Shown piece by piece: positions 7,722-62,490 of a DNA stretch of 64,000 nt. Position 1 is the stretch's first letter. The number at the start of each line of letters is the position of its first letter. The stretch spans positions 6,510,001 to 6,574,000 of the forward strand of contig NZ_JARUMJ010000001.1 of the NCBI RefSeq assembly GCF_036898465.1, in the 5' to 3' direction. The notes beneath the pieces are model-generated. The model saw only the letters and a list, made by a program, of their open reading frames with translations, was not told the origin of the DNA and did no database searches. This DNA comes from Streptomyces sp. B21-105. Lineage in GTDB: Bacteria > Actinomycetota > Actinomycetes > Streptomycetales > Streptomycetaceae. Made by a program: the position numbers and the translations under genes.

Positions 7722-9515
7722 GTGGCGCAGGTGCCGCAGACGTTCTTCGATGCTCTCGCGGTGCGCACCTGGTGCGGACTGGCGCTCTCGGCGCTGGGCC
7801 GCGCGCGCGAGGAGATCGACGCGATCAACGTCTACCCGGTCGCGGACGGCGACACCGGCACCAACCTGTACCTGACCGTCGAGTCCGCGGCGACCGCCGT
7901 CGAAGCGGTCTTCGCCGGGCACGAGGCCGGTTCCGCGCCGGTTCGGCCCCCCTCCCTCGCCGACGCCGCGCGCGCGATGGCGCACGGCGCGCTCATAGGC
8001 GCGCGCGGCAACTCGGGGACGATCCTCGCGCAGTTGCTGCGCGGCATGGCCCAGGTGCTCGCCTCCGAGAGTGAGATGACTCGCACCGACGGGGCAGGGC
8101 TGAGCCTGGCGCTGCGGCAGGCCGCCGACGCGGCCCGGCAGGCCGTGGCCCACCCGGTCGAGGGCACCGTCCTGACGGTCGCCGCCGCCGCCGCGGACGC
8201 GGCGGGGAGCGCGGAGGGCGACTGCGGCACGATCGCCCGCGCCGCCCACCGGGGGGCGTGTACGGCGCTCGCCGCCACTCCGGGGCAGCTCGCGGTCCTG
8301 GGGCGGGCGGGAGTGGTCGACGCGGGCGGCCGGGGGCTGGTCGCGGTTCTCGCGGCCCTGGTGGAGACGTTCACGGGGGAGTCGCCGGGGATGCCGGGGG
8401 TTTCGGGGCTGCCGGGTCTCCAAAGCTTCTCGGGTCTCTCGGGGTCGCCTGGGCGCGTGGAGCCTGTCCGGGCGGAGAGTGCGGGCGGCCGGGGGCGCGC
8501 GCAGGGCGGGGAGGGCGGGAAGCCCTGGGACGCCGGCCGGGGTGGCGAAGCCAGTGCGGGGGACGAGCACGGTCCCGACGGGGAAGAGGGCGGCCCGGCC
8601 TTCGAGGTGATCTACCTCCTGGAGGCCGAGGACGCGGCCGTGGGACGGCTGAGGCAGCGGCTGGACGCCCTCGGCGACTCGCTCGTCGTGGTCGGCGGCG
8701 ACGGGCTGTGGAACGTCCATGTGCACGTGGACGACGCCGGCGCGGCCGTGGAGGCGGGCGTCGAGGCGGGCCGACCGTACCGGATCCGCATCACCCACTT
8801 CGGCGCCGACGACGCGCACACGCGCGGAGGCGAGCGTCCGCCGCGCGAGCGCGTGCAGCGTGCGGTCGTCGCCGTCGTGCCCGGGGAGGGACTGGTCGGG
8901 CTGTACGCCGAGGCCGGCGCGACCACCGTACTCGCGCGCCCCGGGGAGCCGCCCGCGAGCGGGGAGCTCGTCGAGGCGGTGCGACGTGCCCACGCGCGCG
9001 AGGTGGTGCTGCTGCCCAACGACGCCGACTTGCGGCACACCGCGGCCGCGGCGGCGGAGCAGGCCCGCACCGAGGGCATCCGGGTGGCCCTGATCCCGAC
9101 CCGTTCCGCCGTCCAGGGGATCGCCGCGCTCGCCGTCCACGAGCCCGACCGCCGCTTCGACGAGGACGTCGTCTCGATGACCTCGGCCGCCGGCGCCACG
9201 CGCTACGCCGAGGTCGTCGTGGCCGTGCGCGAGTCGTGGACCATGGCCGGCATCTGCCAGGCCGGCGACGTCCTCGGACTCGTCGACGGCGACGTGGCCG
9301 TCATCGGCTCCGATGTCGCCGCGACCGCGGAGGGCGTCCTCGACCGCATGCTGTCGGCGGGCGGTGAGCTGGTCACCCTGGTGCTCGGCGACGAGGCTCC
9401 CGAAGGCGTCGCGCAGCGGCTGGAGTCGCGGGTGCGGGAGGCGTATCTCGCTGTGGACACGGTCGTGTACCGGGGTGGGCGGCAGGGGGCGTTGTTGTTG
9501 ATCGGGGTGGAGTAG
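7722..9515 (+). CDS. DAK2 domain protein, FakA/YloV-like
   Basis: This 597-residue protein has an N-terminal DhaL/DAK2 kinase domain: INVYPVADGDTGTNLYLT (about 35-52) carries the metal/ATP-binding aspartates, and ALIGARGNSGTILAQLLRG follows near 90. The C-terminal half (AVVAVVPGEGLVGLYAEAGA, VVLLPNDADLRHTAAAAAEQ) matches the FakA C-terminal region. FakA phosphorylates fatty acids held by FakB in other bacteria; that role is inferred from the family. Between the domains lies a Gly/Pro-rich linker (about residues 220-285) with collagen-like GMPGVSGLPGL repeats. The GTG start has AAGGAGG six bases upstream. The gene is convergent with the TPR gene. Confidence 0.85.
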   Translation: MAQVPQTFFDALAVRTWCGLALSALGRAREEIDAINVYPVADGDTGTNLYLTVESAATAVEAVFAGHEAGSAPVRPPSLADAARAMAHGALIGARGNSGTILAQLLRGMAQVLASESEMTRTDGAGLSLALRQAADAARQAVAHPVEGTVLTVAAAAADAAGSAEGDCGTIARAAHRGACTALAATPGQLAVLGRAGVVDAGGRGLVAVLAALVETFTGESPGMPGVSGLPGLQSFSGLSGSPGRVEPVRAESAGGRGRAQGGEGGKPWDAGRGGEASAGDEHGPDGEEGGPAFEVIYLLEAEDAAVGRLRQRLDALGDSLVVVGGDGLWNVHVHVDDAGAAVEAGVEAGRPYRIRITHFGADDAHTRGGERPPRERVQRAVVAVVPGEGLVGLYAEAGATTVLARPGEPPASGELVEAVRRAHAREVVLLPNDADLRHTAAAAAEQARTEGIRVALIPTRSAVQGIAALAVHEPDRRFDEDVVSMTSAAGATRYAEVVVAVRESWTMAGICQAGDVLGLVDGDVAVIGSDVAATAEGVLDRMLSAGGELVTLVLGDEAPEGVAQRLESRVREAYLAVDTVVYRGGRQGALLLIGVE

Positions 9516-9595
9516 GCGGTGGAGTAGGCGGGGGGTGGGGTGGCGGGGCTGAGGCCGAGGTGATCGTTCAACGATCCTCGGAACTTCTTGGTCCT

Positions 9596-9634
9596 CGTTG
9601 GACGATCCCCTCGCCCTCAGGGGATCGTTCAACG
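9596..9634. terminator. Bidirectional terminator between DAK2 and TPR genes
   Basis: CGTTGGACGATCCCCT (9596-9611) pairs with AGGGGATCGTTCAACG (9619-9634) with one mismatch and a 7-base loop. The right arm includes the stop codon of the minus-strand TPR gene. A further small palindrome, ATCGTTCAACGAT, lies at about 9563-9575, so the CGTT(C/G)(A/G)ACGA motif recurs three times. Confidence 0.6.
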
Positions 9635-12600
9635 ACCCTTCGATTCCTCCGTCGCCTGCAACAACTGCTCCGCCTCGGCCCGCCGCGCCCGCATCGTCTC
9701 GCTGTCCACCCGACCGTCGCCCTCGAAGCCCTCGAAGCCCTCCAAGCCCTCCAAGCCCTCGGCTGCGTCCGCGCAGGACCGCAGCACCGCACGCGCGCGG
9801 GCCGCCGCCTGTGTGGGGCGTCCCAGGTCGCACTCCAGCCAGCCGGCGGCCAGCTCGGCGCCGGTCCGGGCGGACAGGGCGCTGTCGCCCAAGGCGACGA
9901 ACACCGCGACCGCCTCCGACATCTGGGAGAGCGCCTCGTCCAGGGTGGCCCGGATCGCGTCGTCGTCCGCGTCCTCGGCGGCGGAACGAGCCAGCAGGTC
10001 CCCGAACTGGCGATGGGTGTCGCCGAGTTCGGCGATCAGCCTCGCTCGCGCCTCCGCGTCGTCGCCCGCCGCGTCGAAGGCGTCCGCGCACTCCTCCACG
10101 GCGCTCGTCATCAGGGCGCGCGCCACGTCCGTGTCCTGCTCGGTGCGCAATGCCAGCCAGGCGCGGGCGCGCAGCGAGCGGATCAGCCCGCGCACATTGC
10201 CGAGGTCCCGCCACAGTTCGCCCGCGCGCGCGTACGCCCGGTCGGCCTCGGCGTGCAGCCCGGCATGGCCGAGCGACTCGGCGGCCAGGTGGGCGAGGGT
10301 GGCATGGTCGTGCTGCTCGGGCCAGTGCCGGGCGATCTCGGCGGCCTGAAGCCGGCGTTCGGCGGCGTCCCCGTGCTCGCCGAGCTCGCTCAGACAGTCA
10401 CCGAGCCACCACTGCGTCTGGACGACCGCCCCGTCCCCGTGGGTCTCGGCGCTCAGGTCCGTCAGCGCGGACTCCAGCACCTCCGCGGCCTCGGCCCAGC
10501 GGCCTTGCCGTACCAGGTACCCGCCGAGCTGGTGACGCGCCCACGCGCCGAACGTCGGGCCCGCCCCCGCCTCGTCGGCCCAGTGCGCCGACTCCAGAGC
10601 GTGCTCCGCGGCCTCTGCGGCCTCTCCCCGGCCGCCGACCACCTCGGCCAGCTGCAGGTGCAGCTGGGCCCGTCCGATCGCCTCCAGGACCGGCCCGCCG
10701 TGCTCCAGGGCCGCCCGCAGCGCCCGCTCCGCCTCCGCCATGTCGCCCAGCTCGTGGGCGAGACCGGCCAGCCGGGCCTCGTACTCCACGGCGAACCACG
10801 GCACCCCCGCCTCGACGAACTCCGCGGCGGCCCGCGCGAACAGCTCCGCACCGGTCTGCGGCTCGCCGGAGCGCGTCGCGAGCTCCGCCAGCATCGCGTG
10901 GCCCTCGGCCACCCGGGCGGCGAGCCGGACGTCGTCACCGGCCCGCCCGTGCACGAGCGCCAACAGCTCCCGGACGGCCGATTCCGCCGGCGTCCCGACC
11001 GCTGCGGGCACCGGCCCCTCGGTCTCGTGAACCCGACGCATCAGTATCCGGGCCCGCGCCATCAGGACACCCGCCGCCTGCGGCACCTCGGTGCCGCCCT
11101 CCGCGTACAGCGCGAGGACCCGGTCGTACGGCTCGGCCACGGCCGCGAGCGCCTCGTCCACCTCGCCGTCGAGCGCACGGACGTAGGCGGCACGCGCGCG
11201 TGCCGCCAGAGCCTCCCCGGGGTCGCCCGCCTCCGCGTACAGCCCGGCGGCGCGCTCGAAGGCGTCGGCGCTCCGCGGGCCGAGACCGGTCGCCTCGTGG
11301 TCGGCGATCTCCGCGCGGTCCCGCGCCGCCAGCTCCACGTCCTCGTTCGCGGCGGCCGCCCGGGCCACCCGCGCCCACGCCTCGGCGGCGTGCGGCCGGA
11401 GGGCGTCCGACAGCCGCCGGGCCTCGACGAGCAGAGCGGTCAGGTCCGCTTCACCAGCGCCACCGGCGCCACCGGCCTCCTCGACCGGGGCCGCAGCGGC
11501 GGGTGCTGGCCGGGGTGCGGCAGACGCCGGACGGGACGCCCGCACCCCCAGGGGCAGCCGCTCCGCCAAGGGCGTCCGCGCCATACGCGCGCGTGCCCGC
11601 TCGCTGACGTGCTCCGTGCCGTTGCGCTCGTCGAAACGCGCCGCCAGCGCGAGCGCCTCCGCGCGCGCGTGCGTCGCGAGCTCGTCGGCCGTCCACTCCC
11701 GCCCGGCCGCCCCGGGCACCCGCTCACCGCCGAGCCCGAGCTCACCCAGGCGCCCCATCAGCAGCGCCACCACACTCAGGAACTCCAGCTTGCTGCGCGG
11801 ATGGCCCTCGTCCGTGAAGTACGCCGGCCGCTCCGCGAGCAGCTCCAGGCCCCGCGCCTCGTTGCCGGTCAGCGCACAGAACTCCACGTGGGCGGCGTAC
11901 GCGCCCCGCATGCTCTCCATGGACCGCACCAGCCGGAACCCGCGCAGATGGTGGGCGCGGGCCTCGTCCGGGCGGCCCAGCCGCAACAGCGGCAGCAGGG
12001 ACGACGCGAGCACGCCGTGCGGCTCGTGGGCGCACGTGTACTCGCCCTCCAGGACCGGCGCCCACAGCTCCAGGGCCTCGGTGTCCCGCCCCCGCTCAGC
12101 CTGCCACCAGCCCTGCCCGTGCAGCTCGCACGCGTGGCAGTCGGCCATCGCGTCCCGGTCCGCGGCCAGCCAGGCGGCGAACGCCCGCTCGGCCCGCGCC
12201 ACGTCACCCACGTGCGCGGCGACGCTGAACTCGGCGCTGCGCACCGCCCGTTCGGAGTGACCGGCGAGCCGGTAGCGGTGCTCCATCTCGCCCAGCCACT
12301 TCTCCAACGACGCCAGCGGCACGTGCGGCTGGTCGAGCATGCCGGCCGACATCCACTTGAAGACCCAGTGCAGCGAATGCGTCTCGTACGCGTCGAAGTC
12401 CTCGGGCCGTTCGTCCCACATGCGCAGCAGCCGCGCGAACGGGACGAACATCTTCGCCTTCTCGGAGCTGTAGTTGTAGACCTTCAGCTGGTGCCCGAGT
12501 GCCTCGATCACGGCGAGCGGGATCTTCAGCTTCTCCGCCTCCGCGAGCAGCCGCTCCGCGCGCGCGTTGCGGGCCGGCCCCTCCGGCTGCTCGCCGTTCT

Positions 12601-55253: not shown

Positions 55254-56030
55254 ATGGGTGGCGAGAGCACTACACGAACGGCCCCGCGCAGCGGCGGTGG
55301 CACCAGCAGCGGCCCGGTGGGCAGCCGGACCGGACAGCGACTGTCCGGACTGGCCGTCGCGCTGGGCCTCGTGCTGTTCCTCGGCGGGTTCGCCTGGGGA
55401 GCCCTGCTCTACCGGCCCTACACCGTGCCCACGAGTTCCATGAGCCCGACGATCGCCGCCGGCGACCGTGTGCTCGCCGAGCGCATCGACGGCGGCGAGG
55501 TGCGCCGCGGGGACGTGGTCGTCTTCACCGACAAGACCTGGGCGAGCAACGCGCCCGTGGTCAAGCGCGTGGTCGCGGTCGGCGGCGACACGGTCTCCTG
55601 CTGCACCGACGGCAAGCTGACCGTCAACGGCAAGCAGATCGAGGAACCGTATCTGCCGCCCGGCACGCTGGCCGAGATCAAGAACTTCCCGACCGTGAAG
55701 GTCCCCGACGGCAGGCTCTTCCTCCTCGGCGACGAGCGGCAGGGCTCCCTGGACTCCACCGCCCACCTCACCGACGCGGCGCAGGGCACGGTGGCGCGCA
55801 GCGCCGTCAAGGCCCGCGTCGACGCCGTCGTCTGGCCCATGAACGGCATGCTGAAGCGGCCCACGGGCTTTGTGGCCCTCGGCGCCCTCTCCGAGCCGGG
55901 GCCGCTGGGCACGATCGGCTGGCTGATCGTCGCCGGCGCCGTACTGGTGCTCGGTGGCGGCGCCTACGGCCCGATCGCCAAGCGGACGGGTCGCCGCCGC
56001 ACCCGGCCGGAGCCCGCCGGTGCCCGCTGA
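55254..56030 (+). CDS. sipZ: Type I signal peptidase SipZ
   Basis: A 258-residue signal peptidase: N-terminal helix LSGLAVALGLVLFLGGFAWGALLY, catalytic Ser in PTSSMSPTIAAGDRV, Lys in VVKRVVAVGGDTV, box E GDERQGSLDSTAH, and a C-terminal membrane helix (LGTIGWLIVAGAVLVLGGGAYG). The C-terminal anchor fits the topology reported for several Streptomyces Sip proteins. Box E has GDER where most have GDHR. It overlaps the interrupted NUDIX gene by 11 bp. Confidence 0.93.
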   Translation: MGGESTTRTAPRSGGGTSSGPVGSRTGQRLSGLAVALGLVLFLGGFAWGALLYRPYTVPTSSMSPTIAAGDRVLAERIDGGEVRRGDVVVFTDKTWASNAPVVKRVVAVGGDTVSCCTDGKLTVNGKQIEEPYLPPGTLAEIKNFPTVKVPDGRLFLLGDERQGSLDSTAHLTDAAQGTVARSAVKARVDAVVWPMNGMLKRPTGFVALGALSEPGPLGTIGWLIVAGAVLVLGGGAYGPIAKRTGRRRTRPEPAGAR

Positions 56031-56255
56031 GCCGCTGCCCGCGAGCCCTGTGCCCGCTGGCCCTGTGCCCGCCGGCCCGGTGTCCGCTGATTCGGCGCCC
56101 GCGGAGCCGGCGGGCGGGCCGACCGGAGGGGGCGCCGACGCGTACGAGGGCGGGCTGCGCAAGGTGGCGCGGGTCGTTCTGCTCGACCCGCAGGACCGCA
56201 TTCTGCTGCTGCACGGCCATGAGCCGGACGACCCCGCCGACCACTGGTGGTTCAC
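56020..56255 (+). pseudogene. NUDIX hydrolase, 5' fragment (interrupted)
   Basis: Starts with GTG overlapping the sipZ stop and encodes a Pro/Ala-rich leader followed by GLRKVARVVLLDPQDRILLLHGHEPDDPADHWWFT, the strands that precede a NUDIX box. The reading then runs into foreign sequence and stops at 56287-56289. The remaining half, with the entire NUDIX box, lies at 62115-62490. Joining position 56255 to 62115 restores codons (Thr ACG) and a 203-residue protein. The fragment alone cannot hydrolyse nucleoside diphosphate derivatives. Confidence 0.9.
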
Positions 56256-56366
56256 AACTGGAGTACGGGCGGGTTCCCTGAGGGGCTGATCGACGCGTCG
56301 TTCCATTTCAGCTGGCAGGAGGCTCGATGGGCTCCTGCATCAGCCTCTCAGGATGTTGGGCCGTTC

Positions 56367-56381
56367 TCCTGAATTTCAGGA
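56367..56381 (+). promoter_or_regulatory. Palindromic operator candidate before the recombinase gene
   Basis: TCCTGAA-T-TTCAGGA is a perfect 7-bp inverted repeat in AT-rich DNA 25 bp upstream of the recombinase start. The downstream HTH protein in the same operon is a plausible autoregulator (inference). Confidence 0.45.
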
Positions 56382-56405
56382 CTCTCTGCTGTAATTTCAA
56401 CGTCC

Positions 56406-57593
56406 ATGGCAGATCCCGGGACTCGCGTGCTCTCCCTCGTACCGCCTCCCAGCGAACCATCGCCCGCAGAGGCGGGGTTGCTGGGAGGCGAGCCGGGGCT
56501 GAGCGACGTGCTGTTGCTGCAGCGCCGGTACGCAGGCGGGGCGAACGAGGAAGACGAGCAGTTGTTCTTCATGGACGCTCTGGTCGAGTACCAGTGGGCG
56601 CGAGATGTGGCGGGCCTGGCGTCCTCCACCCTGGACGGGCTGACGAAGCCAGTGATCGAGGTGTGCGACCACTACGGTGTCGTGCCATGGCGGCTGACGC
56701 CCCGGCACGTCGACGGGTACTTCGCCGGAGTCGGCAAACGCCAGGCACCGACCGTGCGATCGAAGCTGAACCGGATCGACCACTTCTTCGCATTCCTGGA
56801 GCAACGCTACGCGCACGAGATCTTCCAGCGTTTCGGGGCAGCGGTCGAGTCGCCGATCGATCCATTCAACCGACACGCACACCGCGGTGACTTCGGCCTT
56901 CGGGTGCCACCGTCGGCCCGGGCGGTCAACGAGTTCTTCGCCGGTTGGCGGCGGGAGCTGGCGCACGCCCGCAAGGAGGCGGTGGCGTGTAGGGACTATG
57001 TGATGGCGAAGTTGATCTACATCTCCGGGGTGCGGGCTTCGGAGCTGTGTCAGATGCGCATGAAGGACCTGCACTGGGAGTCCGGCGACTTCGGGAGGTT
57101 TCTCGTTCAGGGCAAGGGCGCCCGAGGGTCGGGGCCGCGACAGCGAGAGGCGTTTCTGTTCGCCGAGGGACGTGAGTTGCTGTGGTGGTACGTGGAGGAA
57201 GTCCGCGGGTTGTTCTCAGACGACCCGGAGCACCCTGAGTCGCCGGTCTGGCCCTCGGAGCGCTTGGCGCGGGATCTTGGCGGCATGCCGAACCCTGTCG
57301 GCCCGGCGGTGACAACGTCGACGCTACGGAAAGCCCTGGCGAGAGCCTCGGAGGCCCACCTGGCAGGTCCGGTCGAGCGGATCTTTCCTCATCTGCTTCG
57401 GCATGCTTGTGCCACACACCGTTACGAGGCGGGGATGTCCCTGTGGGAGGTGCAGAAGTTGCTCGGCCATGACTGGACGACGACCACGGTTCGGTACATT
57501 TTGTCCGCTCAGGGCGATCCAGAGATGGCCAGCCGACGTTCGTCGGCTCGGGCCGCACAGCGACTACGCGTGGACACGGGGGGTCTGTCGTGA
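56406..57593 (+). CDS. Tyrosine recombinase (TnpA/integrase-like)
   Basis: A 395-residue site-specific recombinase. Residues about 55-175 resemble a SAM-like core-binding domain. The catalytic domain has Arg210 in SGVRASELCQM, a lysine in FLVQGKGARGSGPRQRE, His329-x-x-Arg332 in FPHLLRHACATH, His355 in LLGHDWTTTTVRYI and nucleophile Tyr364. The complete R-K-H-R-H-Y set indicates an active enzyme. It is the first gene of a coupled three-gene operon: its TGA overlaps the next GTG by four bases. It should catalyse strand exchange for the element in which it lies. Confidence 0.93.
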   Translation: MADPGTRVLSLVPPPSEPSPAEAGLLGGEPGLSDVLLLQRRYAGGANEEDEQLFFMDALVEYQWARDVAGLASSTLDGLTKPVIEVCDHYGVVPWRLTPRHVDGYFAGVGKRQAPTVRSKLNRIDHFFAFLEQRYAHEIFQRFGAAVESPIDPFNRHAHRGDFGLRVPPSARAVNEFFAGWRRELAHARKEAVACRDYVMAKLIYISGVRASELCQMRMKDLHWESGDFGRFLVQGKGARGSGPRQREAFLFAEGRELLWWYVEEVRGLFSDDPEHPESPVWPSERLARDLGGMPNPVGPAVTTSTLRKALARASEAHLAGPVERIFPHLLRHACATHRYEAGMSLWEVQKLLGHDWTTTTVRYILSAQGDPEMASRRSSARAAQRLRVDTGGLS

Positions 57594-57925
57594 AGTGGAA
57601 CCTGCGGTGGGCGGCGGCCAGCCGAGGCATCTGGCGGCCCAGTGACCTGATGCCCGTGTTCAAAGAAGTCGGCTTCACTCCGTCGATGTCGAAGGTCTCC
57701 GCGCTCTGGTCGGGCACACCGGTAACGGTGCGGTTGGACGACCTGGACCTGATCTGTGCTGCTCTTCAGTGCACGGTCGCGGACCTGCTCGTCGCCGAAC
57801 CTGTAGCCGGGAAGACGCCGCTGGCCCAGGACGAGGGGCTCGCGACGGCTGCGGGCGAGTCGCCCAGGCCGGTTCCGCGCCGGTCCACCGGGGCGGGGCG
57901 GCCCCGGTCGCTCCCACCGAACTGA
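57590..57925 (+). CDS. Small Xre-type helix-turn-helix protein
   Basis: A 111-residue protein. Residues about 5-70 (AAASRGIWRPSDLMPVFKEVGFTPSMSKVSALWSGTPVTVRLDDLDLICAALQCTVADLLV) match a Cro/CI-type HTH of the kind that ends in 'CxALxCxxxDLL'. The tail is Pro/Arg/Gly-rich. It sits between the two recombinase genes, coupled to the first by GTGA overlap and one base from the second, the position of a tnpC-like accessory gene. It may regulate the operon or direct the recombinases (inference). Confidence 0.8.
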   Translation: MKWNLRWAAASRGIWRPSDLMPVFKEVGFTPSMSKVSALWSGTPVTVRLDDLDLICAALQCTVADLLVAEPVAGKTPLAQDEGLATAAGESPRPVPRRSTGAGRPRSLPPN

Positions 57926-57926
57926 G

Positions 57927-60221
57927 GTGGCCCCAAGACGAAAGCGCCCCAAACGTCTGCCCTCGCTGGGGCAGTGCGCCGGCTGCCTCGGCTGGGGGCT
58001 GCGGGTCCAGTCACCGTTCTGCTCCCCCTGCCACCAGTGGCGCTCCAAACGGAACCGCCCGGAGGGCGAGTGCAGACGGTGCAAGCGGCTGTGGCGCATC
58101 AATGATGAAGGTTTCTGCCGGGCGTGTGTCGTGGCTGTCACCGAGTACGACGCGGCCTGGTACTTCGACCCCGCACAGGCCGCAGAGCAGCCGGCATGGA
58201 CCCAGCTCGCGTTCTGTCTGCCCGCTTCCGTCCGTCGACCTGCCCTGCCCACCGGTATCTACCGCCTGCAGACTGACGGCCGCTACCACGCACCTGGCTG
58301 GGCACGCGCTCAGCGCCCCGCCCTCGTCGTGGACGACGAGCGGATCTGTCCGCCGGCAGTGCGGGGACAGGTGGCCCTGTTCCCTGCGCCGTACCGGCTG
58401 CTGGAGCGCCATGCCGTCGCGATTCGCAGCCGATTCCAAGACGATCTGATCCAACTCAAACCGCTGGTCGGTCAGGTGCAGTCCGAGCACTGCCTCGGGC
58501 GTGCCTGGCGCGTCAGTGCCATGAACATGTTGGCCCTTGCGCTGGCGGCGCGCGACGCGGCCGGCCAGGACGTGGTCGACGCCGCGATCCTTGACGCCCT
58601 GCCTCACCGGCCCGTCGGAGTCACCCGGGTCCTGAACAAGGCTGGCTGGCTCGCCCCTGACCTGGACCGCGAGGTCGTCCTGCTGCCGCACGCCCAACGG
58701 GCCCGCCCCCAATCTCAACCACGAAGTTGTGATCACTGCCTTTCGTGGGGCCGAAACCAAGTGTGCGACGCCTGTAGAGGCTGGCGTCGTGTCTACGCTG
58801 ACCAGCGAGGATGCTGTGGTCGGTGTGGCGCCGGGCCGCTTCCTCTTCGGAACGGTCGATGCCGCGACTGCACTCGACAGCGCCTTCGACTGGGTCCTGA
58901 CACCGACGCCTCTACCTGGCGACAACTACGATTCGCCGGACCGTCCTTGGCGAACGGCAGCGCGGCCCGTCGCGAGCTCCGCGCGAATCGCCCAGAGCTC
59001 AGTCCGCCAGCCGTACTTGTAGGTCAGGCGACGATCTTCGAGATCGAGCGGGACTGGCGCCCGCTGGCCGGAGCCCTGCTGCCGGCCCCGCTACCGCCGG
59101 TGAAGGCCCTGCTGGCGGACTTCGCCCAATACACCTCCGAGAACCACTGGCACCAGAAAGTCCACGAGCCGATGGCTCGGGTCCTACGAGTGGCCGCCAC
59201 CTGGTTGGGCGCCGACACCGTCTTCCGCGAGGATGAGCTCCGGGCAATGCACCGCGTGTTCGGTGGCACGGGGCGCATTCGCGGGCTTCTCGCCTTCCTG
59301 GACCAACGCGAACAGCTCGTCACCTCGCCGCCGCGGCGCAACCGCCACGAGGCTTTCGTCCAGCGCACCATCGCCGCCTTCCCTCCACGAATCAGCGACG
59401 AACTCGGCACGTGGGTCGGGGTCTTGCGTGGCACCAGCAGGCCCCACCACCGCGTCACCGACTACGCCACTATGCGCCGCTACCTCATCTACCTGGCCGC
59501 GCCACTCGCTGACTGGACCACCCGCTACACCACCTTGCGCCAGGTGACGGAGGCTGACGTCACAGCCGCTGTCACCGCGGTCAAAGGCCCACGCGCCCAC
59601 GAGCGCGCTGTGGCGATCCGGTCGCTCTTTCGAGCCCTGAAACACACCAAGCTCGTCTTCGCCGACCCCACCCGCGGCGTTCGCATAACCCGTCAGGAAC
59701 TGTTGCCCACAACTCTGGCCCCTGACCGGCTGGCCGGGCTCTTGGAGACCAGCTCCAACCCGGCTACCCGTCTGGTTCTCGCCTTGGTCGCCCTCCACGC
59801 AACCAGCGGCACCGACCTGCGCAACCTCGTCCTCTCCGACGTGCTGCTCACCCGCCGGCAACTTCTGATCCGCCGCCCCCACGGCCGTCACGTCGTCCAC
59901 CTCGACAACACCACAGCTGACCTACTGCACGCTTGGCTCCGCTACCGCCATCAGCGCTGGCCACGCACCGTCAACGCGCACCTTCTGGTCACTCAACAGA
60001 CCGCCAACGCGACCGATCCTGTCTCCGCGGACTACGTCTACAGGCGCTTCGATCCCGCCGGTCTGACTCTGCGCGCAGTTCGCGCCGACAGAATCCTTGA
60101 TGAGGCCCGCGAGACCGAAGATCCCGTCCATCTCGTCCGTGTCTTCGGAATCTCCATCACCACCGCCATGAAGTACATCCACGCTGCCCACCCCCACCGC
60201 GCCGGCCCTGTTCCTCACTGA
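57927..60221 (+). CDS. Zinc-ribbon protein with C-terminal tyrosine-recombinase-like domain
   Basis: A 764-residue protein. The N-terminal part has two CxxC-x11-CxxC zinc ribbons (Cys17/20/32/35 and 49/52/64/67), and two more lie near 268-283 and 296-313. Residues about 430-590 look like a core-binding domain. The C-terminal 170 residues follow the recombinase fold: ATSGTDLRNLVLSD (first Arg about 630), LRAVRADRILDEA where the HxxR box is expected, and FGISITTAMKYIHAAHP with a tyrosine at about 749. The usual first His of box II is not apparent. It is probably the second recombinase or DNA-targeting subunit, comparable to TnpB of Tn554. GTG start. Confidence 0.85.
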   Translation: MAPRRKRPKRLPSLGQCAGCLGWGLRVQSPFCSPCHQWRSKRNRPEGECRRCKRLWRINDEGFCRACVVAVTEYDAAWYFDPAQAAEQPAWTQLAFCLPASVRRPALPTGIYRLQTDGRYHAPGWARAQRPALVVDDERICPPAVRGQVALFPAPYRLLERHAVAIRSRFQDDLIQLKPLVGQVQSEHCLGRAWRVSAMNMLALALAARDAAGQDVVDAAILDALPHRPVGVTRVLNKAGWLAPDLDREVVLLPHAQRARPQSQPRSCDHCLSWGRNQVCDACRGWRRVYADQRGCCGRCGAGPLPLRNGRCRDCTRQRLRLGPDTDASTWRQLRFAGPSLANGSAARRELRANRPELSPPAVLVGQATIFEIERDWRPLAGALLPAPLPPVKALLADFAQYTSENHWHQKVHEPMARVLRVAATWLGADTVFREDELRAMHRVFGGTGRIRGLLAFLDQREQLVTSPPRRNRHEAFVQRTIAAFPPRISDELGTWVGVLRGTSRPHHRVTDYATMRRYLIYLAAPLADWTTRYTTLRQVTEADVTAAVTAVKGPRAHERAVAIRSLFRALKHTKLVFADPTRGVRITRQELLPTTLAPDRLAGLLETSSNPATRLVLALVALHATSGTDLRNLVLSDVLLTRRQLLIRRPHGRHVVHLDNTTADLLHAWLRYRHQRWPRTVNAHLLVTQQTANATDPVSADYVYRRFDPAGLTLRAVRADRILDEARETEDPVHLVRVFGISITTAMKYIHAAHPHRAGPVPH

Positions 60222-60363
60222 GCCCCAGTGGGGCCAGATCAAACCGCCCTGCGGGACCACCACAACGCCCGGCTGGATAGCACGGTCGGTCTCCCCCGCC
60301 CACACCCCCGAAATCAAACAAATATCCCAGTCGGGCGTGGGCATGACATAGGGTCAGACGCGT

Positions 60364-60394
60364 GTGCGGGCCTGCACTAGCGGCCCGCACTAGC
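60364..60394 (+). promoter_or_regulatory. Hairpin and direct repeats upstream of the cargo genes
   Basis: GTGCGGGCC (60364-60372) and GGCCCGCAC (60382-60390) are a perfect 9-bp inverted repeat. Overlapping it, GCACTAGC occurs twice (60374-60381 and 60387-60394). The cluster ends 28 bp before the start of the first cargo gene and could be an operator or terminator separating recombinase and cargo transcription. Confidence 0.5.
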
Positions 60395-60422
60395 CGTGCA
60401 CGAACTAGAGAAAAGGATCCAT

Positions 60423-60998
60423 GTGAAATCCACCCGACACCCCGCGCCGCGGGCAAGACGCCGATTAACCCGGCCGCTCGGCGCCCTGCTCGCCTTCGGC
60501 GCATCCCTGATGCTGGTGTTCACCACCGCCACCGCCGCCCAGGCGCACTACGTGTACCAGTCCGACGAGGTCTGGTCCAACAGCGACTCCTCCAAGTGCG
60601 AGTACACCTACTCGGAGGTCTCCCACGGCAGCGGAGGCGGCTACGCCAGGGCCTACGGGCTGGCCTCCTCCGGCATTCCCTTCTCCCAGGCGTGCATCCT
60701 GGTCTGGAACCGGCCCCCGGGCAACCTTAAGGCCGCTTTTCAGTACTTCTACTGGGACGGCACCCAGTGGGGCGTGTGCCGGCAGCTCATGGGCACCCAG
60801 AACCCCGATGGCACCTGGAGCGGCTACGCCAACACCACCGAGACCTCCAGGATGGAACTCAACTACGACTTCGGGGTCGTGTCGCCCTGCGGTTGGGGCT
60901 ACTACGCGACCAAGGCCGGGAGCAACGTCTACTACGGCGGCACCTGGTACGGGGGCAACGTCCCCATCTGGTCCGGACAGCACATCATCGAGAACTAA
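60423..60998 (+). CDS. Secreted cysteine-containing protein of unknown function (cargo, TTA codon)
   Basis: A 191-residue protein with a twin-basic signal peptide (RARRRLTRPLGALLAFGASLMLVFTTATAAQA), cleavage likely before HYVYQSDEVW. The mature part (~150 residues) is rich in Tyr, Trp, Gly and Ser and has four cysteines (SSKCEY, SQACIL, GVCRQL, SPCGWG), enough for two disulfides. No family was recognised. The GTG start is chosen for the AAAAGGA site seven bases upstream. A leucine in the signal region is encoded by TTA (60465-60467), so translation should need bldA tRNA, typically active late in development. Confidence 0.8.
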   Translation: MKSTRHPAPRARRRLTRPLGALLAFGASLMLVFTTATAAQAHYVYQSDEVWSNSDSSKCEYTYSEVSHGSGGGYARAYGLASSGIPFSQACILVWNRPPGNLKAAFQYFYWDGTQWGVCRQLMGTQNPDGTWSGYANTTETSRMELNYDFGVVSPCGWGYYATKAGSNVYYGGTWYGGNVPIWSGQHIIEN

Positions 60999-61024
60999 CC
61001 TGCAAGAAGCTGGAGACACCGCAC

Positions 61025-61444
61025 ATGAAGAAGACCCGTGTATCCCTCGCTGTGACAGCGGCGGCCGGCGTGCTGCTGCTGGGCACCCTGGCAGTGAACG
61101 CCTCCGCCGACGAGTCGCCCCGCTCCGCCGACAGCGGGCAGAGCGAGAAGGCCGCGGTGCCGCCGGCTCCGCCGACCCCGGAGTGGGTCAACCCTGACGG
61201 CACGGTGGACGAGTCCAAGATGCCCGAAGAGATGCCGCTGATGGGGCCGGACGGCAAGGTCGTCAAGGACGAAAACGGCAACCCCCTCATGGTCGAGACG
61301 CGCGTCAAGTTAGCGGAGCCCGGAGCGCCCCAGGCGCCCCTGGCTGGCCCCCGGGCCGGGGAGAAGCGGTCCACGAGCACGGACGCAGAAGGCCGCAAGA
61401 CGGAGACCATCGAGGTCGAGCCGTCCGTTCCGCCCGCGCAGTGA
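61025..61444 (+). CDS. Small secreted acidic protein (cargo, TTA codon)
   Basis: A 139-residue protein with a classical signal peptide MKKTRVSLAVTAAAGVLLLGTLAVNASA, cleaved before DESPRS. The mature part is Pro/Glu/Lys-rich (VPPAPPTPEWVNPDGTVDESKMPEEMPLMGPDGKVVKDENGNPLMVET) and ends EVEPSVPPAQ, with no known domain. It follows the first secreted protein by 26 bp and is probably co-transcribed. Leu96 is a TTA codon (61310-61312), so it too should depend on bldA. Confidence 0.8.
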   Translation: MKKTRVSLAVTAAAGVLLLGTLAVNASADESPRSADSGQSEKAAVPPAPPTPEWVNPDGTVDESKMPEEMPLMGPDGKVVKDENGNPLMVETRVKLAEPGAPQAPLAGPRAGEKRSTSTDAEGRKTETIEVEPSVPPAQ

Positions 61445-61475
61445 CCTGAGGGACATTCCGGAGAAGAAGGGCCGC

Positions 61476-61739
61476 ATGAGCAGGCTGCTGGAAGCGGTGT
61501 GTGCGCTGACCGTGGGCGTCCTCGTTGCGCTCCTTGTATGGGGCGCTGACCCGGACGCCGTGCGGGTGGCGTGGAGGGAGGGCGAGCTGAGCGGTGTCAC
61601 GGTCGTGTTCGTAGCGGCGTGTGCGCTGTGGCTGGTGCTATGGCGCAGGCGTACCGGGCGCGGCCGACTGGCATGGCCGCTTGCGGTGCTGCTGTGCGGT
61701 GCGGCTATTGCGCTGGTCATGGCGGCCATGGCCGGTTGA
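61476..61739 (+). CDS. Small membrane protein of unknown function (cargo)
   Basis: An 87-residue protein with three hydrophobic stretches (AVCALTVGVLVALLVWGA, VTVVFVAACALWLVLW, LAWPLAVLLCGAAIALVMAAMAG) separated by short charged loops. A GGAGAAGAAGG ribosome site precedes the ATG. It lies 31 bp after the second secreted-protein gene and ends just before a strong terminator, so it is the last gene of the cargo operon. No TTA codon was seen. Confidence 0.7.
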   Translation: MSRLLEAVCALTVGVLVALLVWGADPDAVRVAWREGELSGVTVVFVAACALWLVLWRRRTGRGRLAWPLAVLLCGAAIALVMAAMAG

Positions 61740-62114
61740 CCGGCGCAGACAGGTGGGGCTCCCCGTTCTTGTGGGCGGGGAGCCCCACTGGCGTTTCGGG
61801 GTGGAGCGGCTGTTAAGGATCTTGACAGGAGGGGCAAGATATCTCTGAGTCACGGCTGCTGTGTCAGCGACCTGGTCCGATTCCGGGACATCACGCCTGC
61901 GATTACAAGCCCGCCGGATCGGCCCCTGACGCGAGGCCAGAAGCTCCCCAACACGGCACTGGCGGCCGTCCGCGATCTGACGTCCCGATCGCCGGTCGAT
62001 TCAGACACATCGCAGCAACGGCCGAAAACCCGCCGTACTCATAGCTGTCGGTGAACCACTCACGCGTCGGTTCCTGCGACTCACCGGCCAGAAATCAACG
62101 AACCCGCCTGCTTC
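61740..62114. other. Right end of the inserted element, non-coding
   Basis: After the terminator no gene was found. The region contains AACCCGCC twice (62027-62034 and 62101-62108) and GTGAACCAC (62051-62059), which mirror motifs at the left junction, plus ACGCGTCGGTTCC (62062-62074), close to ACGCGTCGTTCC at the left end (56293-56304). These are probably recombinase-binding sites. Confidence 0.6.
61753..61788 (+). terminator. Terminator of the cargo operon
   Basis: GTGGGGCTCCCCG (61753-61765) and CGGGGAGCCCCAC (61776-61788) form a perfect 13-bp stem with a ten-base loop, 13 bp after the membrane protein stop. Confidence 0.9.
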
Positions 62115-62490
62115 GCCCGGCGGCGGCGTCGAGGGCGACGAGACCCGTGAAGAGGCCGCTCTGCGGGAACTCGTCGAGGAGACCGGCATCACCGAGGTCG
62201 ACCTCGGTCCGGTGCTGTGGCGGCGGATGTGCTCCTTCCCCTTCGCGGGCCGCCGCTGGGACCAGGACGAGTGGTACTACCTCGCCCGGACGACGGTCAC
62301 GGCGACCCGGGCGACGGCCCTGACCGAGCTGGAACGGCGCAGTGTCGCCGGAGCTCGATGGTGGACGTGTCAGGAACTGGCCCAGGCACATGAGACGGTG
62401 TATCCGACCAGACTCGCCGAGCTGCTGCGCAGGCTGCTCGACGACGGTCCTCCGGCCGGACCGGTGACCCTTGACGCGGAAATCGTCTAG
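62115..62490 (+). pseudogene. NUDIX hydrolase, 3' fragment (interrupted)
   Basis: Encodes PGGGVEGDETREEAALRELVEETGI, which fits the NUDIX box G-x5-E-x7-REL-x-EE-x-G-I exactly, followed by the rest of the hydrolase (LWRRMCSFPFAGRRWDQDEWYYLAR.. to LDAEIV). It has no start codon of its own in the correct frame near the junction; the 5' part is at 56020-56255. It is intact apart from the insertion, suggesting a recent event. Confidence 0.9.

Follow-up and report, generated by a model that had tools for sequence, protein, structure and literature searches.

Tsy elements are transposons in which an operon codes for a tyrosine recombinase (YRec), a helix-turn-helix (HTH) protein and TnsF, the last of which joins zinc fingers to a tyrosine recombinase, and they insert in the gene comM (Faure 2023, PMC10293859). 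According to the same paper, TnsF has been shown by experiment to select the target of Tsy; its binding depends on 10 bp within the codons for the comM Walker B motif, and the region bound in ZooTsy is no more than 40 bp upstream of the insertion. A circular form, with its ends joined, has been isolated, the loss of any one component impaired transposition and the activities of both recombinases were essential (PMC10293859). The present analysis concerns an insert of 5859 bp, at positions 56256 to 62114 of a 64,000-nucleotide window of the genome of Streptomyces sp. B21-105 (contig NZ_JARUMJ010000001.1; positions are those of the window unless a locus or contig is named), which is very probably, by analogy with Tsy, a site-specific transposon of the Tsy type in Streptomyces, with NUDIX-box coding sequence as its landing site. 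In this regard, the element is best read as belonging to an actinobacterial branch of the Tsy type with diversified targets.

Structure of the element

The insert splits a NUDIX gene cleanly, and its two outermost positions are exact borders, as deduced from the ends of other copies. Rejoined in frame, the flanks read ...HWWF/TPGGGVEGDE... across the junction (the slash) and give 203 residues, by arithmetic from the GTG at 56020, with a match to Pfam NUDIX (PF00293, 1.4e-22) in which the domain crosses the junction. The first-pass annotation had described just such a split gene, with the same borders, reading frame and protein length, and all of this is borne out. The target gene, the ends and the recombinase operon are laid out as follows.

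56020 to 56255, forward strand: NUDIX gene, 5' part, ending in ...HWWF and two bases of a Thr codon; intact alleles are found in other genomes
56256 to 56276, forward strand: left end, AACTGGAGTACG followed by GGCGGGTTC (the left-end motif of the family)
56406 to 57593, forward strand: P1, tyrosine recombinase (YRec) of 395 amino acids; Pfam PF00589 Phage_integrase, 2.2e-20
57590 to 57925, forward strand: P2, small HTH protein of 111 amino acids; Pfam HTH_26, 9.3e-11; its start overlaps the stop of P1
57927 to 60221, forward strand: P3, 764 amino acids; two Cys clusters of zinc-ribbon type and a C-terminal tyrosine-recombinase fold with an incomplete catalytic set
62100 to 62114, forward strand: right end, GAACCCGCCTGCTTC; holds, inverted, the 9-mer of the left end
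62115 to 62490, forward strand: NUDIX gene, 3' part, beginning GCC CGG CGG (...PGGGVEGDETREEAALRELVEETG...)

The catalytic set of P1 is complete, with R210, K237, H329, R332, H355 and Y364 the same in all 26 aligned sequences, in agreement with the earlier description of a complete tyrosine recombinase. What had been called an Xre-type protein is indeed an HTH protein, P2, and a gene of this type lies between those of P1 and P3 in most relatives. P3 likewise merits the description of a zinc-ribbon recombinase-like protein, in that among 23 sequences its Cys 268, 271, 280, 283, 297, 300, 312 and 315 are invariant and Cys 32, 35, 49, 52, 64 and 67 almost invariant, and its AlphaFold2 (AF2) model (mean pLDDT 75.6, pTM 0.34) finds XerA (2e-8) and XerH (2.9e-7) with Foldseek. 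By eye, from alignments, P3 of the window lineage keeps Tyr750 and one Arg, has Ser for the first Arg and has lost both His; the first catalytic Arg is present, also by eye, in the loci L075, L086 and L088. A protein search with A1, an alignment and profile of P3, in which the 7992 candidates with most words in common were scored, returned 29 proteins with 40–94% identity to P3.

Set beside Tsy, the order of YRec, small HTH protein and zinc-finger protein with recombinase fold is the same, the cargo lies downstream, and insertion is within a gene at the codons of a conserved motif. The differences are that this motif is the comM Walker B in the one and the NUDIX box in the other (with other families in relatives), that the GIY-YIG nuclease of some Tsy elements was not found in the window element, that the hosts of the window type are actinobacteria, and that a terminal 9-bp inverted repeat is present here, whereas the authors of the Tsy paper detected none (PMC10293859). 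A trio of recombinase, HTH protein and long protein in the same order also occurs on plasmids of Mycobacterium intracellulare (L152 1700-4376) and Arthrobacter sp. FB24 (L153 1824-5057), such that the plan extends across actinobacteria. There is, in addition, a further recombinase group at 38–39% identity in the genomes G290, G055 and others, with two copies in G055.

Copies, empty alleles and ends

A second P1, 100% identical, is present in the same genome (9.2 Mb in three contigs). The copy to which it belongs (C1:977958-983816) splits another NUDIX gene, with flanks that differ from those of the window, and no difference separates the two copies over 5862 bases, which comprise the element and three shared target bases and at whose limits they diverge. 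An identical 5.86-kb copy elsewhere in its own genome places the insert beyond chance. The gene split by the second copy is one of 10 NUDIX matches that lie within 47 kb (G000 C1:937732-984093).

Across the genus, relatives of P1 (E <= 1e-60) occur in 44 of 392 genomes, including the present one, and 35 loci come from named records. The distinct close copies that have the left end number 10 (the window, L005, L071, L053, L038, L072, L058, L068, L037 and L036), where L007 and L034 are merged as being at the same places as L071 and L072, L008 and L009 are counted once with L053 and L038, with which they share 75 flanking bases, and the end-less fragments L070 and L151 are excluded. Right ends were identified in 8 of the 10. 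All eight copies with both flanks readable have (L/P/T)PGG across the junction in a single orientation, and in all of them Pfam NUDIX spans the junction (1.4e-22 to 6.3e-13). Counting back two residues from the GG of the NUDIX box, the cut separates the second base of that codon from the third. Together with the identical second copy, these sites uphold the earlier proposal of a mobile, site-specific three-gene recombinase element. Not all copies are intact, since P1 is truncated in L068 and fragmented in L038. In L066, where the element is 68% related, NUDIX is again found across the junction (4.4e-22), with the cut at the same position by eye and with a different right end (GGGG for CTTC). 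In L066 the recombinase gene is in turn split by other DNA, about 2.5 kb in length (8771-11287).

When joined, the flanks of the window site have matches in 388 of the 392 genus genomes, some of which matches may not be orthologues, and the own genome shows the split half only. In all 30 loci read the site is uninterrupted, which speaks against the possibility, raised by the first-pass annotation, that this NUDIX site might be occupied in every related strain. The nearest empty allele of the window site with the same left flank differs at 1 of 45 bases, away from the junction; for the L071 site (matched in 19 of 150 genomes), the nearest empty allele is 93% identical over 321 nt and shows no difference in the 39 bases that surround the junction. 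Occupied and empty alleles therefore agree, and no duplication, loss or footprint is left at these two sites, which are the two of the eight that were compared in this way. In the 30 intact loci the cut is followed by G (16 loci), C (8), A (4) or T (2), with G in the three nearest (94%). The idea that the G after the cut derives from the element was considered and rejected, as the nearest empty alleles at both sites already carry it; the fixed G is, for this reason, read as a target preference.

That the joined flanks restore the full NUDIX frame, with the box intact, is also what would be expected of a programmed intervening element, in which the NUDIX gene is restored by regulated excision during development. 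Sporulation-specific excisions occur in other bacteria. In the present case such a role is most improbable, however, as the NUDIX gene that is split varies from strain to strain, one genome has two such split genes, intact alleles are common and nothing was found that links the element to a developmental signal.

Taken as a Tsy-type transposon, the element has ends that are shared between copies. The left end is the same in all 12 rows of close copies, and its motif is found upstream of P1, with three mismatches or fewer, in 61 of 67 loci, although the three-mismatch matches could be chance; a lack of any shared end motif, which the first-pass annotation had named as a finding that would tell against it, is thus not what is seen. 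An inverted 9-mer is common to the left end (AACTGGAGTACG-GGCGGGTTC) and the right end (GAACCCGCC-TGCTTC). Were the two ends to be joined as a circle, they would form 15-bp arms around a 6-bp centre, AACTGG (a 15-6-15 core), the counterpart of which in the target would be GCC[CG]GG. In L061 and L044 the left end (7815 and 7799, respectively) is directly preceded by 12–13 right-end-like bases (CCCGCGCGCTTC and GAACCCGCGCGCT), perhaps from tandem insertion; a looser search for right ends upstream of these two left ends gave none, and tblastn of the upstream DNA gave no second element.

The longer sequence GCC[CG]GGCGG is present in eight of eight targets as against 6 of 18 scored intact NUDIX boxes of the own genome (12 of the 30 NUDIX loci fetched are unscored, being the two split genes, duplicates or loci in which the pattern found no box). 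Together with a P1 tree that tracks the target too (see below), this enrichment would suit a choice of target made by P1 and the short DNA core instead of by P3. Such an arrangement is unlikely, as conservation among lineages that differ in target is far higher in P1 than in P3, TnsF is the shown selector in Tsy (PMC10293859), and L066 has, by eye, CCC for GCC at its site. Targeting by the short core alone was rejected: the own genome contains 93 occurrences of a 17-mer of the core type and 76 of a reversed control, a pattern too common for such a core by itself to explain targeting of NUDIX genes only.

Relation to other recombinase elements

Tn554 likewise transposes to specific sites and encodes a short and a long protein of recombinase type, in many cases with a small third one, and the first-pass annotation had called the present element Tn554-like. 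As an analogy, by virtue of the three-gene recombinase plan, the term stands; as a statement of family it does not, and it is the Tsy plan that matches. Membership of the Tn554 family (tnpA, tnpB and tnpC), in a form adapted to Streptomyces, would accord with the three-gene recombinase operon, with site-specific insertion inside a gene without target duplication, and with the publication of related elements from actinobacteria (PMC3414803). It is nevertheless very unlikely: profile searches and gene order, in a comparison with four actinobacterial records of that paper, staphylococcal Tn554 not being among them, speak against it, as do footprint and motif. Profile A1 of P3 gave no match in NC_008537, NC_008271 and NC_009426 and a single match in NC_008270, of 38 positions in a 70-amino-acid frame (3.2e-7), as against 4.3e-73 in the control trio of NC_008538. 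P1 gave weak matches (2.1e-6 to 2.8e-4) in NC_008537, NC_008271 and NC_008270 and none in NC_009426, as against 1.4e-48 in the same control. In NC_008537 the two recombinase genes follow one another without an intervening HTH gene, whereas here the HTH gene sits between the two recombinase-type genes, and the target differs. Neither of the sites compared (window and L071) shows the 6-bp footprint described for Tn554, and RHRY, a Tn554 trait of both recombinases, is present in P1 and absent from P3 (by eye). The Tn554 TnpA subgroup has N-terminal beta strands (PMC8138268); in the AF2 model of P1 (mean pLDDT 68.7), residues 1–45 have pLDDT <50 and no strand is predicted there. By the profile searches, the Tn554-related actinobacterial elements of PMC3414803 are another family.

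The elements known as SE, GInt and RIT have in common with the present one a tyrosine-recombinase operon and specific sites and, in SE and GInt, a recombinase-fold partner without the RHRY motif (PMC10214605). They differ in gene content and order, which in SE is intA-tfp-intB-srap, and in that a zinc-ribbon selector is not described for them in the parts of that source drawn on; SEs, further, leave a 6-bp footprint (PMC10214605).

Target choice across lineages

A candidate right end could be assigned in 31 of 52 loci, the 8 close copies and 23 others, of which 10, picked for convincing rejoined frames, were scanned with Pfam. The domains that cross the junction are Tn3 transposase (1.4e-85 and 7.2e-95), GGDEF (8.3e-32), IstB (1.2e-54) and DDE_Tnp_1 (7.2e-13); a DNA ligase match (7e-14) starts five residues before the junction, and those to PycTM (8.4e-16) and P450 (1.9e-7) are in the right half only. 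The rejoined proteins of L087 and L088 match no Pfam family, are mutually alike and have the same cut point. These two loci (L087 2770 and L088 2758, both of genome G019) hold one element in two copies, in two related genes of an RRQLR protein family. Among the unscanned loci, L076 and L077 have by eye the same Tn3 site as L042, L048 is in Tn3 with a rejoined frame off by one base, L059 combines a NUDIX with a Tn3 flank (see below), L060 and L061 have ligase in the right flank only, and the rejoined protein is not recognised in L041, L044, L050, L074, L079, L080 and L082. The remaining ligase loci were classed by eye from their left flanks.

Target class largely tracks the recombinase tree. 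On a P1 tree of 54 rows, 26 of them in named target classes (duplicates being merged, such that the window stands as L005, unlabelled, and the fragmentary L038, L072, L066 and L068 being omitted), the classes need 9 changes, which is the minimum, against a mean of 15.3 when shuffled, and none of 200 shuffles was as low. Ligase (10 rows, 100/98), NUDIX (4 rows, 100/100) and GGDEF (2 rows, 100/100) each form a single group, and on a P3 tree of 28 rows the seven NUDIX-site rows form one group (99/97). P1 is more conserved than P3 in 276 of 276 pairs overall; between lineages, median identity is 67% for P1 and 39% for P3, and P1 has the higher value in each of these 216 pairs. The lower conservation of P3 is what would be expected of a target selector.

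By analogy with Tsy, P1 would join both ends into a circle and recombine the circle with the target, P3, with its zinc ribbons and degenerate recombinase fold, would bind and select that target as TnsF does, and P2 would assist. Insertion breaks the NUDIX gene, which the host may tolerate through redundancy: its genome has 38 NUDIX matches including the 2 split genes, which leaves some 36 others, and the host should therefore be able to bear losing one NUDIX gene. Tn7 moves by DDE transposition to a place beside its gene, which is left unbroken, whereas here a tyrosine recombinase element splits its target. What Tn7 has in common with it is that codons of an enzyme catalytic site (glmS) are the conserved address (cited in PMC10293859).

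A wider proposal, for which the balance of evidence appears about even, is that TnsF-type zinc-ribbon proteins are naturally diversified actinobacterial target selectors, each lineage being addressed to the codons of one conserved motif (the NUDIX box, the Tn3 transposase core, DNA ligase, the GGDEF metal site, IstB, P450 and others), with multi-gene enzyme families as interchangeable landing pads and with the target readable from the P3 lineage.

Several points weigh against a Tsy-type transposon guided by P3. Catalysis by TnsF is essential in ZooTsy, whereas P3 of the window lineage is without several catalytic residues, and the ZooTsy binding region is upstream of the insertion, whereas here the conserved codons are mainly downstream. 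P3 is likened to TnsF by architecture, gene order and fold, and its quicker divergence could also reflect relaxed constraint; mobility is here read from sequence comparison, and the circle is a proposed form. Among the close copies, no NUDIX sequence is recognised in the left flank of L036, whose contig stops before any right end, and L037 has a left flank that is NUDIX-like by eye and no right end within 17 kb. L059 (7849-12805), which belongs to the Tn3-target clade, is flanked by NUDIX-type sequence on the left, as L035 identically is, and by Tn3 transposase sequence on the right; it is possibly the product of recombination between two copies, or a sign of a broader target range. Lastly, Tn3 and PycTM are not single groups on the P1 tree, and the P3 tree flags long branches at L066 and at the NUDIX group.

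With regard to what would be new, Tsy is described in PMC10293859 with comM as its target, whereas the motif used here is shared by dozens of paralogues per genome. The main text of that paper does not contain the word 'nudix' or any word starting 'actino', and has 'streptomyces' once; its 1,099 listed TnsF homologues may include actinobacterial ones (PMC10293859). Searches of the open-access literature, preprints aside, found nothing on NUDIX-targeting elements or on Tsy elements with targets other than comM. Sister lineages on other motifs would provide a natural series of re-targeted selectors, from which the reading of DNA by zinc ribbons and a recombinase fold could be learnt, with programmable DNA insertion as a possible use, and they would account for a number of NUDIX, ligase and GGDEF genes that are broken in streptomycetes.

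Accessory genes

Downstream of the recombinase operon the window copy carries three small genes and a hairpin.

60396 to 60998 (start possibly 60423), forward strand: cargo gene 1, secreted-type; relatives without a functional name
61025 to 61444, forward strand: cargo gene 2, exported-type by eye; no family
61476 to 61739, forward strand: cargo gene 3, small membrane-type by eye; no family
61753 to 61788, forward strand: perfect 13-bp hairpin, terminator-like, 3' of the cargo genes

The three small exported or membrane genes and the terminator of the first-pass annotation are thus present, with signal peptides in two of the three proteins and the third of membrane type (by eye). Its description of the cargo as developmental, however, finds no footing: none of the three genes has a family match above the family cut-off, cargo gene 1 has 23 relatives, of which the named ones are Streptomyces proteins called hypothetical, uncharacterized or secreted, and sister copies have an ABC-exporter cassette or no cargo. 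Neither PADLOC, for P1–P6, nor PHROGs, for P2–P6, gave a match.

The cargo of the element is exchangeable between copies. The same three genes are present in the window copy, in L005 and in a remnant on a linear plasmid of Streptomyces sp. NBC_00080, which is 99.2% identical over 3.5 kb. L038, L058, L072 and L068 have instead in common a 2.7-kb cassette on the opposite strand (92.7–95.4% identical to that of L038), which in L038 codes for a MerR-type regulator, an ABC permease and an ABC ATPase, the best NCBIfam match of the last being drrA (6.2e-82, below the family cut-off). L053 (4061 bp) and L071 (4063 bp) have no cargo. About the last 99 bp of the element are retained in copies with different cargo.

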